A stretch of DNA of 28,244 nucleotides. It comes from a virus. The stretch spans positions 1-28,244 of the IMG/VR virus record IMGVR_UViG_3300038825_001429. One strand, 5' to 3'. The notes beneath the pieces were generated by a model. The model had not been told where the DNA came from, searched no databases, and was given only the letters and a program-made list of their open reading frames with translations. Shown here piece after piece: positions 23,649-26,253 of the stretch; position 1 is the stretch's first letter, and each line of letters starts with the position of its first letter. A program made the translations under genes and the position numbers.

Positions 23649-23806
23649 ACTAAACCCAGAATTAAGACAGTTGGTTGGTAGCTCCTAGCCTTTTAGTTTA
23701 GGCTTTAACATAGCCAACCCCAGGGGATGATTTAACCCTGCCTCATGACTGTTCAAGGCCAGAACTTCGGCACGAAAAAGTTAAGCCTGTTCTGGGTTTA
23801 GTTTTT
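23649..23806 (+). ncRNA. Probable structured RNA with terminal 13-bp stem
   Basis: The ends pair perfectly: 23649-23661 with 23790-23802 (ACTAAACCCAGAA with its complement), followed by a T-run. Inside, GGTTGG near 23673 can pair with CCAACC near 23714, AGCCT near 23687 with AGGCT near 23699, and CAGGG near 23721 with CCCTG near 23736; a small hairpin with TTCGG lies near 23760. No convincing reading frame runs through it. The multi-branch layout resembles a folded non-coding RNA ending in a terminator-like stem. The strand is assumed from the T-run. It matches no RNA family known to me. Confidence 0.5.
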
Positions 23807-23815
23807 ATCAGGCAC

Positions 23816-24005
23816 GTTTTTTGATGTTAATTATATATAATAATATAAATATATTTAAAATATTAATTATACTTTAAAACTAATATATATAATTAAAACC
23901 TTTTTATTTTTAAAACATATAGTAACTAATAATATTATAATAAATACTGTAGTTACTGGTTATTAATAATTACATAGCATTAACAAATAATATTAATAAT
24001 ACATG
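23816..24005. other. Very AT-rich segment, candidate replication origin
   Basis: About 190 bases are almost pure A/T, far from the rest of the window. They include the inverted repeat AGTAACTA/TAGTTACT (23921-23928 and 23950-23957), the palindrome TTATTAATAA (23960-23969) and several AATATTAATA-like words. It lies between a structured RNA and a gene with a phage replication-type domain. An unwinding element or origin is the natural reading. It may also contain the promoter for the next operon, but no clear -35/-10 pair stands out in such composition. Confidence 0.45.
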
Positions 24006-24007
24006 AA

Positions 24008-24541
24008 ATGACAGAAATGACGATCAATGATCATGCCCAAATTGTTTTAGACGAAATAGGGATTTTATTAAATTCAAAACCTGTTTCGTCGAATACTGCC
24101 AGGGCATCATATTTAAAACAAAGATTAAAAGATTATTCTTCAGAACAGTTGATTGCCTTTGTGAATTGGCAGTTCAAACAATGGGAAAACTGGGAATTAA
24201 GAAATCAATATTTCAGACCAGAAACACTGTTTCAAAAGAAACGGGTTTCTGAATGTATGGAAAAGGTTGAATTAGGGGAAGCACCTTTGGACCCAGAACC
24301 AACAAAGGAAACAGTGGACTGCAAAAACATTTCTTTAGAAGAATACAGAACCATCGTTTTAAGGGGTTCAAGATATTTTGGATACCACTACAGAAGAATG
24401 ACTGATTCCAAGAAGAAGAAAGTGGATCAGATCATCATCAAGGATTATCAGTCTGGCAAACCTGTTTATTCAGCAATCGGAATCAAAACTTTTGAAGCCA
24501 TTAGAAAGGAAAGCCATGAAAGACTTGAAAACCAAATTTGA
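24008..24541 (+). CDS. Replication protein with conserved phage C-terminal-like domain
   Basis: In this 177-residue protein, residues about 25-85 (ARASYLKQRLKDYSSEQLIA, then ELRNQYFRPETLFQKKRVSE) match the pattern of the phage conserved C-terminal (Phg_2220_C-like) domain found at the end of replisome organiser proteins. The usual N-terminal winged-helix DNA-binding part is missing; here the domain is N-terminal, followed by about 90 residues with RGSRYFGYHYRRMTDSKKKK. A role in replication initiation fits with the AT-rich region just upstream. Confidence 0.6.
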   Translation: MTEMTINDHAQIVLDEIGILLNSKPVSSNTARASYLKQRLKDYSSEQLIAFVNWQFKQWENWELRNQYFRPETLFQKKRVSECMEKVELGEAPLDPEPTKETVDCKNISLEEYRTIVLRGSRYFGYHYRRMTDSKKKKVDQIIIKDYQSGKPVYSAIGIKTFEAIRKESHERLENQI

Positions 24542-24716
24542 TGAATCACCAGATCCACTTTCAATCAAGGAAGTTTCTGGGCTTCTACGGGTTCATGAAA
24601 ATACAGTGAACAGATGGATCTTGAACGGACAACTGGAAGCCATCCAGCCAACTGGGAAATGGGGGTCAGTCAGGGTCACAAAAGAAGCACTGGGTAAGAA
24701 GATTTTTAAAGACTGA
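24516..24716 (+). CDS. Excisionase-like HTH DNA-binding protein
   Basis: The 66-residue protein starts at ATG 24516 (AAAGGAAAGCC upstream) inside the end of the previous gene. SIKEVSGLLRVHENTVNRWI and a wing-like GKWGSVRVTKEAL form a MerR/excisionase-type winged HTH (HTH_17). It could be the phage Xis that biases the integrase toward excision, or a regulator. It is far from int, but so are several phage xis genes. It precedes the DpdA-like gene by three bases. Confidence 0.7.
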   Translation: MKDLKTKFDESPDPLSIKEVSGLLRVHENTVNRWILNGQLEAIQPTGKWGSVRVTKEALGKKIFKD

Positions 24717-24719
24717 TCA

Positions 24720-25442
24720 ATGATTCATTACCATGGCACCAGAATAGCCTGTTCAGATGATCAGTGTGCCAGGATCTTAAAAGGCAGACACGCATTTGTT
24801 TCTTTTGCAGACCCTTCACAGTTATCCATTGTCCAGGAAGTCTGCCAAACCTGGGCCTTGGATAATGGTGCATATTCTTTTTTTAATTCAGGGAAGAAAG
24901 TTGATTGGGATGACTTCTATTCTTTTGTTCAAGAAGTCAGATCACCTTCAATGGATTTTTTTGTCATCCCTGATGTGATTGGGGGATCAGAAGAAGAAAA
25001 TGATGCCCTGATTGAATCCTGCCCTTTTCAAGATGGAATTCCTGTTTACCATCTTCATGAATCCCTTTCCAGGCTGGAAGCACTTGCAGAAAGATTTTCC
25101 ATGATTGCTTTTGGAAAGATGGTTGGTGTTGAACACAATTCTGAAAAATTCTGGATCAGGATGCACCAAGCACTGGACAAAATTTGTGATGACCAGGGCA
25201 GACCTAAAGTGAAGATCCATGGTTTGAAATGTTTAAATCCACAAATCTTCACCAAAGTTCCTTTCACCAGTGCTGATTCCACCATGGTTGGAAAGAACAT
25301 TGATGAAAGCAGAAACAAGTGGGCTGGTCCAATCAGGCCAATTTCAATCTTTGCAAAAGCCCAGGTTTTGATTGATCGGATTGAATCATTCAATTCACCA
25401 GCCTTCTGGAAAAGACAACCCATTCAAATGGAATTGATATGA
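24720..25442 (+). CDS. TGT/DpdA-like 7-deazaguanine base-exchange enzyme
   Basis: The 240-residue protein has the conserved blocks of a phage family related to tRNA-guanine transglycosylase: TWALDNGAYSF (Asp48, like the DSGGF of TGT), FVIPDVIGGSEEEND (Asp85), PVYHLHES (109-115), IHGLKCL (166-172) and FTSADSTMVGKN (Asp186, in the place of TGT's nucleophile Asp). The fold would be a TIM barrel without TGT's zinc site. In related DpdA proteins the enzyme exchanges guanine in DNA for a 7-deazaguanine such as preQ0. The downstream gene, overlapping by four bases, is a predicted precursor transporter. DNA as substrate is inferred; tRNA is the alternative. Confidence 0.75.
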   Translation: MIHYHGTRIACSDDQCARILKGRHAFVSFADPSQLSIVQEVCQTWALDNGAYSFFNSGKKVDWDDFYSFVQEVRSPSMDFFVIPDVIGGSEEENDALIESCPFQDGIPVYHLHESLSRLEALAERFSMIAFGKMVGVEHNSEKFWIRMHQALDKICDDQGRPKVKIHGLKCLNPQIFTKVPFTSADSTMVGKNIDESRNKWAGPIRPISIFAKAQVLIDRIESFNSPAFWKRQPIQMELI

Positions 25443-25936
25443 ATAAATATTTGAACCCTTATGTTTTGGTTTTTCTTGGTGCAATCGTTTCAGCGAATCT
25501 GGTTCTTTATTTTCTGGGGCCGATACCCTGGGCCATGGTCAATGGATTTCTGTTCATTGGTCTGGATTTTGTGATCAGGGATAAGCTTCATGAAATCTGG
25601 GAAACCCATTTGTGGAAAAGAATGCTGGGGCTGATCTTCACTGGATCTGCAATCAGTGTTCTTTTCAATGTTGGTGCCCTTCAGATTGCCATTGCCAGCT
25701 TCATTGCTTTCCTGGTTGCAGGGATGGTGGATGCAGTGATTTACCATGCCCTGAAAGATAAAAAGTGGTTGATCAAATCCAATGCTTCCAATGCAGGGGG
25801 TTCCATTGCAGATTCGATTCTGTTTCCCACCATTGCCTTTGGTGCATTCATGCCTGAAGTCATTCTGGGTCAGATAGCATCAAAGTTTTTGGGTGGTGTT
25901 GTTTGGTCCATTGTCATTTCAAGATTTAAAAAATGA
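25439..25936 (+). CDS. VUT/YhhQ-family 7-deazaguanine precursor transporter
   Basis: The 165-residue membrane protein has about five hydrophobic segments (near residues 8-27, 31-45, 62-80, 82-103 and 127-160). Family marks are GLDFVIRDKLHEIW (41-54) and the polar transmembrane motif NASNAGGSIADSILFPTIAF (115-134). E. coli YhhQ of this family imports preQ0/preQ1. It is shorter than typical bacterial members (around 220 residues), as in compact phage versions. It overlaps the DpdA-like gene (ATGA) and the next gene in the same way, so the three are probably made together. Confidence 0.77.
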   Translation: MNKYLNPYVLVFLGAIVSANLVLYFLGPIPWAMVNGFLFIGLDFVIRDKLHEIWETHLWKRMLGLIFTGSAISVLFNVGALQIAIASFIAFLVAGMVDAVIYHALKDKKWLIKSNASNAGGSIADSILFPTIAFGAFMPEVILGQIASKFLGGVVWSIVISRFKK

Positions 25937-26253
25937 ATGACTACAACCCCAGGTCCAACTGGGATCTGGGGGTGGACATCAATCTTTGTGATCTATATTA
26001 CCAGGGTGATTGGTCTGAAGATGATTTATTGAAGATTAAAAACACCAATCATTCAAAGATTCCCACCAAATCCAAACCCACCAAATCCTGGAACAGACTT
26101 TCATGGTTCTTGGCATCCTGGGAACGATACTGGACTGATGGCCCAGGCTTCTGGGAACATTCCAGGTTTGAATTTTATTCAGTCTGGATTCCCTGGATAC
26201 AGAAAAAATTCCCCTGCAGACAAAAAAACTTCCTGATTCAAGAAAAAATATAA
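25933..26253 (+). CDS. Trp-rich protein coupled to the transporter, unknown
   Basis: The 106-residue protein has nine tryptophans (KSWNRLSWFLASWERYWTDG, then EFYSVWIPWIQKK). It is translationally coupled to the transporter (ATGA). No known motif or membrane helix is evident. It could be a third component of the base-modification cassette or an unrelated early gene. It ends the operon before a 133-base intergenic region that holds a new promoter. Confidence 0.6.
   Translation: MNDYNPRSNWDLGVDINLCDLYYQGDWSEDDLLKIKNTNHSKIPTKSKPTKSWNRLSWFLASWERYWTDGPGFWEHSRFEFYSVWIPWIQKKFPCRQKNFLIQEKI

Follow-up and report, generated by a model that had tools for sequence, protein, structure and literature searches.

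The window (i.e., the whole stretch of DNA analyzed here, 28,244 bases) is the entire IMG/VR record IMGVR_UViG_3300038825_001429, which is classed as linear and has no completeness estimate. A Pfam scan revealed the gene plan of a temperate siphophage, with structural genes (a gpA-type terminase, a lambda-type portal, a fused protease/capsid, tail genes, and a peptidase M15) and other temperate or early genes that include an integrase, an HTH repressor-type gene, an SSB, and an ERF recombinase. Within the early region, two plus-strand genes with ATG starts form the locus of interest. The first, dpdA (24720..25442), encodes a 240-aa short DpdA-family enzyme that is predicted to be a DNA guanine/7-deazaguanine transglycosylase. 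The second, vut (25439..25936), encodes a 165-aa, six-helix membrane protein of the VUT/QPTR type that is predicted to import preQ0/preQ1-type bases. The dpdA stop and the vut start share the four plus-strand bases ATGA (25439..25442), and both the gene positions and the overlap given in a first-pass annotation of this DNA are exact. An identical four-base overlap is present in many relatives, and this ATGA arrangement suggests that dpdA and vut may be translationally coupled.

The genes that flank this pair on the same strand are not shared with related loci. Upstream of dpdA is an excisionase-type HTH gene (24492..24716; HTH_17 E 3.1e-7, TIGR01764 E 2e-7) that has no homologue in related cassette loci; downstream, a 106-aa ORF without a family overlaps vut by four bases (25933..26253) and is not common to related cassettes. 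We found no tRNA genes and no Rfam elements, including the preQ1 riboswitch, in the 28,244-base window. An AT-rich non-coding stretch (23800-24010) precedes a replication-type gene at 24008 and is a possible origin or control region. The terminase (276-2192) is closest to those of Wolbachia phage WO (44-47% identity), a likeness that is too distant for naming a host.

The first-pass annotation described the dpdA product as a TGT/DpdA-like enzyme and proposed a profile comparison as a check. This comparison placed the protein in the DpdA family. It matched PHROG 887 ('queuine tRNA-ribosyltransferase'; E 1.5e-57), which also contains the DpdA proteins of phages CAjan, 9g, and 7-11. Furthermore, hhalign of 61 short DpdAs against six classic DpdAs (CAjan, 9g, and four others) gave a probability of 99.1 and an E-value of 1.3e-18 over 168 columns, a direct profile match to DpdAs that have been shown to modify phage DNA. 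With the window DpdA as query, tblastn recovered 7-11 (5e-26), CAjan (1e-6), and 9g (7e-4), and the protein also matched PHROG 15826 (4.8e-5). No Pfam model (at E <= 1) or NCBIfam model matched it, including PF23859 (the Pfam DpdA model), and searching PDB sequences with a DpdA profile gave no match. Judged by its sequence profile, the window enzyme is a bona fide phage DpdA of the short type. Bacterial TGT was rejected as the closest family: there was no PF01702 match, hhalign to TGT was not significant, and the zinc motif of the bacterial TGT set (CxCxxC...H) is absent from all 240 residues. Classic DpdA likewise has no detectable hhalign match to bacterial TGT, and failure of the TGT profile thus argues only for DpdA over TGT.

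The motifs DNGAYS (Asp48; 24861..24863), IPDV (Asp85; 24972..24974), and SADST (Asp186; 25275..25277), all on the plus strand, are present as first described, and each Asp is invariant in the 61 aligned sequences. Asp48, whose motif resembles the one that holds the DSGGFQ Asp of TGT, corresponds to Asp72 of 9g and Asp63 of CAjan, and Asp186, the candidate nucleophile, corresponds to Asp215 of 9g and Asp206 of CAjan. Asp85 is a Ser in both of these proteins and is therefore a feature of the short clade; thus, the proposed trio of Asp residues holds for Asp48 and Asp186 but does not include Asp85 as a DpdA-wide catalytic residue. Two plus-strand histidine codons complete the conserved set. His111 (25050..25052; His141 of 9g) is invariant in the 61 sequences and in 9g and CAjan, and His167 (25218..25220), also invariant in the 61 sequences, is equivalent to 9g His196, a signature residue of DpdA that is missing from DpdA2 (Hutinet et al. 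2019, PMC6884629). The AlphaFold2 model of the enzyme (pLDDT 92.9, pTM 0.90) is an alternating beta/alpha barrel in which Asp48, Asp85, His111, His167, and Asp186 all lie at or just past strand ends, with Asp48 and Asp186 at the C-terminal ends of barrel strands. A Foldseek search of the PDB with this model returned TIM barrels generally, with archaeosine TGT (1j2b) at rank 20 (E 1.9e-3). Because TGT is not singled out among these generic barrels, the fold alone is not decisive, while the sequence profile is.

The product of vut matched PF02592 (Vut_1) with an E-value of 3.6e-15 (57.1 bits; cut-off 27.2), its AlphaFold2 model (pLDDT 93.4) contains six long helices, and hhalign against a profile of host VUT/YhhQ proteins gave a probability of 96.6 and an E-value of 6.5e-10. 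These results support the earlier assignment to the VUT/YhhQ-type transporter family. Scores for the queuosine precursor transporter equivalogs were below their cut-offs (38.9 of 50.95 bits for TIGR00697 and 34.7 of 252 bits for PRK11212), and we therefore class the protein as a PF02592-domain relative and not as a YhhQ equivalog. A Foldseek search of the PDB found nothing significant for the VUT model, with weak matches to ECF S-components (e.g., RibU 3p5n, TM 0.53, E 1.9). YhhQ of E. coli, for which six helices have also been proposed (PMC5372724), imports preQ0 and preQ1 (PMC5372724, PMC11130926). By family membership, the window VUT probably works like YhhQ and would thus import preQ0/preQ1. 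In Ensifer and Devosia host genomes (L109, L111; G067, G069), a VUT gene lies ~350 bases or less from QueC, which supports a link between this type of VUT and 7-deazaguanine metabolism.

Nine complete GenBank phages carry dpdA and vut as an adjacent pair: Pectobacterium PEAT2, Acinetobacter AB3P2, Enterobacter Phc, Rhizobium RHph_N3_2, Flyfo Tbat1_6, and Escherichia Phleasolo, LHE71, RCIP0319, and ECO111 5-P. These phages belong to unrelated groups, and their DpdA is mostly annotated as hypothetical. A scan of viral contigs with a single VUT sequence gave nothing, and an alignment query recruited 80 contigs. In 71 of these, a short DpdA gene lies no more than 400 bp from VUT and on the same strand, with one gene order in 53 contigs and the reverse order in 18. 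Three of the remaining nine have a PF23859 DpdA adjoining VUT (L205:4255-4992, L245:4174-4998, and L258:4268-5005; E 3e-37 to 4e-40), which keep the motif order DSGAF, HGFG, and ADS, and in one other (L257) VUT is found beside a PHROG 15826 protein. When recruitment started from DpdA, 58 IMG/VR clusters (dereplicated at 90% identity) included 28 with VUT, 10 with PTPS, and 17 with neither. Because these loci are best-scoring hits and the 125-row set used below includes VUT-recruited loci, such fractions do not estimate prevalence in the population. In a phylogeny of 125 DpdAs, the VUT label changes at least 20 times, with 11 changes forced by well-supported branches, and gene order flips at least 10 times. 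These changes, together with the window's other cassette neighbors not being shared, indicate that it is the pair itself that is kept together. The association of dpdA with vut is far beyond chance, and its recurrence in both orders and in unrelated phages shows that the two genes are functionally linked, in line with the cassette described in the first-pass annotation.

Several VUT loci depart from this arrangement. At L013:5036-5866, the dpdA that adjoins VUT seems to be divided among several frames, which may reflect a frameshift or a broken copy. In Enterobacteria phage mEp021 (L028:2926-4226), VUT overlaps a DNA methyltransferase gene (PHROG 757) and not dpdA. In Mycobacterium phage GreaseLightnin (L029:3902-5129) and at L257:195-1293, VUT adjoins a PHROG 15826 protein of 'unknown function'. 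The GreaseLightnin protein has DpdA-like motifs (DNGCF, PDV, and CDS, with DNxC[FY] across L029 and L257), and its hhalign match to DpdA is weak (E 0.003, probability 10%). The mycobacterial host genus of this phage is reported to lack the preQ0 pathway (PMC6884629).

In many loci without VUT, a PTPS/QueD-like gene overlaps the short dpdA (Pfam PTPS E 5e-32 to 2e-12; PHROG 2389 'QueD-like'). Examples are found at L125:5645-6004, L139:3743-4075, and L183:6699-7094, and also at L059, L090, L065, L050, and other loci. Across the 125 dereplicated loci, 59 have VUT, 11 have PTPS, and none has both (hypergeometric 6e-4, ignoring relatedness). Two weak PTPS calls (L141 and L326; E ~1e-5) were dropped, which removed the only case of VUT with PTPS from the 58-cluster IMG/VR set. 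Even DpdAs that are 89% identical can differ in their partner (PTPS in L139 and VUT in L158). The Cys of the CxxxHGH motif is kept in only some of the PTPS proteins (L125, L059, L090, L065, and L050).

A third neighbor, an 80-aa protein (PHROG 37496, no Pfam), lies beside short dpdA at L115:1724-1966, L016:3465-3707, L120:6735-6974, L062:5756-6001, and ~67 other loci, in some cases between dpdA and vut. Of the 125 dereplicated loci, 25 have it, mostly those without VUT. It has conserved CP, HE, and HHGVxIET motifs, and alignment with QueF places its CP and FHE motifs in register. In an hhalign comparison with QueF, it scored 19.9 (E 0.0056, probability 6.6%), compared to 8.5-12.3 for 20 column-shuffled controls, and it may be a minimal QueF-like enzyme. 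No recognized dpdA partner was found in 34 of the 125 loci. As read from these gene neighborhoods, the partner of short DpdA is exchangeable (i.e., VUT, a QueD-like PTPS, or the unannotated 80-aa protein), which is new here. We tentatively suggest, at somewhat less than even confidence, that short DpdA is the core of a module of one enzyme and one helper, in which an importer, a PTPS, or possibly a QueF-like 80-aa protein, mostly one at a time, would feed or tailor the host 7-deazaguanine pool for DNA modification.

The first-pass annotation reported no QueC, QueD, QueE, or FolE-like gene. Profile searches for QueC, PTPS/QueD, and QueF found no match anywhere in the 28,244-base record, and a Pfam scan of 30 window ORFs gave none either. 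Because the record may be a fragment, this absence applies to the record and not to the phage; the earlier statement thus stands for QueC and QueD in the record but does not extend to a phage-wide absence. QueC and PTPS/QueD were also absent from all nine complete GenBank phages that carry the pair, in searches where the positive controls CAjan and 9g scored strongly.

The same annotation proposed that the pair provides salvage instead of synthesis, and host genomes do not support this. We examined 50 bacterial genomes that carry the short DpdA type; TGT is present in all 50, and 47 encode a strong QueC themselves. Because most hosts that we checked make preQ0, the need for import is not obvious, and the transporter more likely adds to the host pool. 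It is therefore more likely that the cassette boosts host precursor supply rather than replacing synthesis. A strong QueC is missing from 2 of the 7 prophage hosts that carry the pair versus 1 of the 43 others, which is only suggestive of a link between VUT and hosts that lack synthesis. The two genomes in question (L100, an Actinomycetota, and L110, Rhizobium subbaraonis) carry the pair but no strong QueC and would be genuine examples of salvage.

We propose that dpdA and vut form a two-gene cassette for 7-deazaguanine DNA modification, in which DpdA swaps guanine in DNA and VUT enlarges the precursor pool, and we consider this reading probable. Specifically, short DpdA would exchange guanine in (phage) DNA for a 7-deazaguanine via TGT-type base exchange, drawing on the base pool of the infected cell, and co-translated VUT would enlarge this pool by importing preQ0/preQ1. 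The inserted base would most likely be preQ0 itself or one of its derivatives (e.g., ADG or preQ1), and in relatives a QueD-like PTPS would take over the supply job from VUT. We infer the transported substrate, the inserted base, the target (DNA and not tRNA), and the benefit, which would be resistance to restriction or to some other defense. CAjan needs dpdA both for dPreQ0 and for resistance of phage DNA (PMC6884629). In E. coli, 9g DpdA alone inserts host-made preQ0 (790 per million nucleotides) and modifies plasmid DNA (PMC6884629). The two DpdA-only phages with measured modification carry traces of dADG (~0.02% of G in 7-11 and ~0.13% of G in MED16), and several enzymes whose sites contain G could still digest MED16 DNA (PMC6884629, PMC8306585). 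Because 7-11 and MED16 carry only traces, host supply works but is poor, and the modification is too little for blanket protection. Thus, the restriction protection in the first-pass annotation is not supported by the DpdA-only phages in which modification has been measured.

The loci without a recognized partner, and the many short DpdAs without VUT, could also be explained if DpdA is fully supplied by the host while VUT has a separate membrane function (e.g., superinfection exclusion) and merely travels along. That most hosts make preQ0 and that VUT scores below the transporter equivalog cut-offs are consistent with this explanation. We nonetheless consider it unlikely, as many phages keep the pair, whichever gene comes first, VUT is also found beside a second DpdA family (PF23859), and a pathway gene, PTPS, takes the place of VUT, which membrane exclusion does not predict. 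Slightly less credible still is that the enzyme acts on tRNA, where a TGT-like protein and an importer would raise queuosine or another 7-deazaguanine to favor phage translation. TGT and DpdA have fold and chemistry in common, database annotation of the family reads 'queuine tRNA-ribosyltransferase', and some bacteria encode fusions of QPTR with bacterial TGT (PMC11130926). However, the specific similarity of the window protein is to DNA-acting DpdA, with none detectable to bacterial TGT and without its zinc motif; each of the 50 host genomes encodes a TGT of its own, and 7-11, a member of the short clade, carries dADG in its DNA. Finally, modification of host or competitor DNA, or precursor depletion (e.g., during lysogeny), in place of protection of the phage's own genome would fit the temperate gene set of the window (integrase and repressor-type HTH), the activity of 9g DpdA on plasmid DNA, and the trace levels in DpdA-only virions, but is very improbable given that the cassette is also found in LHE71, Phleasolo, and Phc of the Drexlerviridae, a lytic family, and that the DNA of phage CAjan requires DpdA for its resistance.

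A base-exchange cassette with a supply helper bears on the DpdA-only phages, which were the largest and least understood group of a 2019 survey, precursor supply included (PMC6884629). The swap of an importer for a synthesis-family gene in close relatives offers a testable supply mechanism for this group, and helper content predicts which phages carry substantial modification and which carry traces only. Many phage and prophage genes labeled 'hypothetical protein' or 'queuine tRNA-ribosyltransferase' could be re-annotated. For phage-host ecology, such DNA may resist restriction, and dependence on host or environmental preQ0 is expected. Recurrence in otherwise unrelated phages points to a common, economical DNA disguise that uses host metabolites, and the helper module, if true, would amount to a large, previously overlooked class of DNA modification among lytic and temperate phages.

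Among known systems, Hutinet et al. 2019 suggested that DpdA-only phages draw on host preQ0 or on uptake, and pointed out YhhQ homologues in phages (PMC6884629). In the literature that we searched, we found no description of DpdA coupled to VUT, of inversions of their order, or of the replacement of the partner, and an earlier description is possible. That survey found YhhQ to be uncorrelated with any phage group (PMC6884629), whereas VUT is tightly linked to short DpdA here. Members of its group 3 (DpdA-only) have DpdA without preQ0 synthesis genes, and no QueC or QueD match was found in the window record, which may be a fragment. Phage 7-11 of this group falls inside the short-DpdA tree next to PEAT2, which has VUT, whereas the 7-11 dpdA has no adjoining VUT and none is reported for MED16. 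Bacterial YhhQ/QPTR (COG1738, PF02592) resembles the window VUT in domain, six predicted helices, and profile match, but is 220-260 aa long in hosts compared to ~165 aa in phages. In Seurat-type phages and Enterobacter phage EC151, a transporter has been proposed to raise preQ0 for DpdA (PMC8310023), as here, but those phages also encode FolE, QueD, QueE, and QueC, and the window record is without QueC or QueD. DpdA of the 9g/CAjan type is like the window enzyme in profile, PHROG 887 membership, the His196 signature, and the Asp pair. It differs in length (306-317 aa compared to 240 aa, the window protein being shortened at both ends), in the Ser at the position of Asp85, and in its accompanying FolE/QueD/QueE/QueC cluster, no such cluster being seen in the window record. 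CAjan also has a preQ0 transporter; the predicted transporter of the window is directly coupled to dpdA and not part of a biosynthesis cluster. Compared to these systems, the locus would be a DpdA modification system pared down to the enzyme that exchanges the base and, most often, one interchangeable helper.
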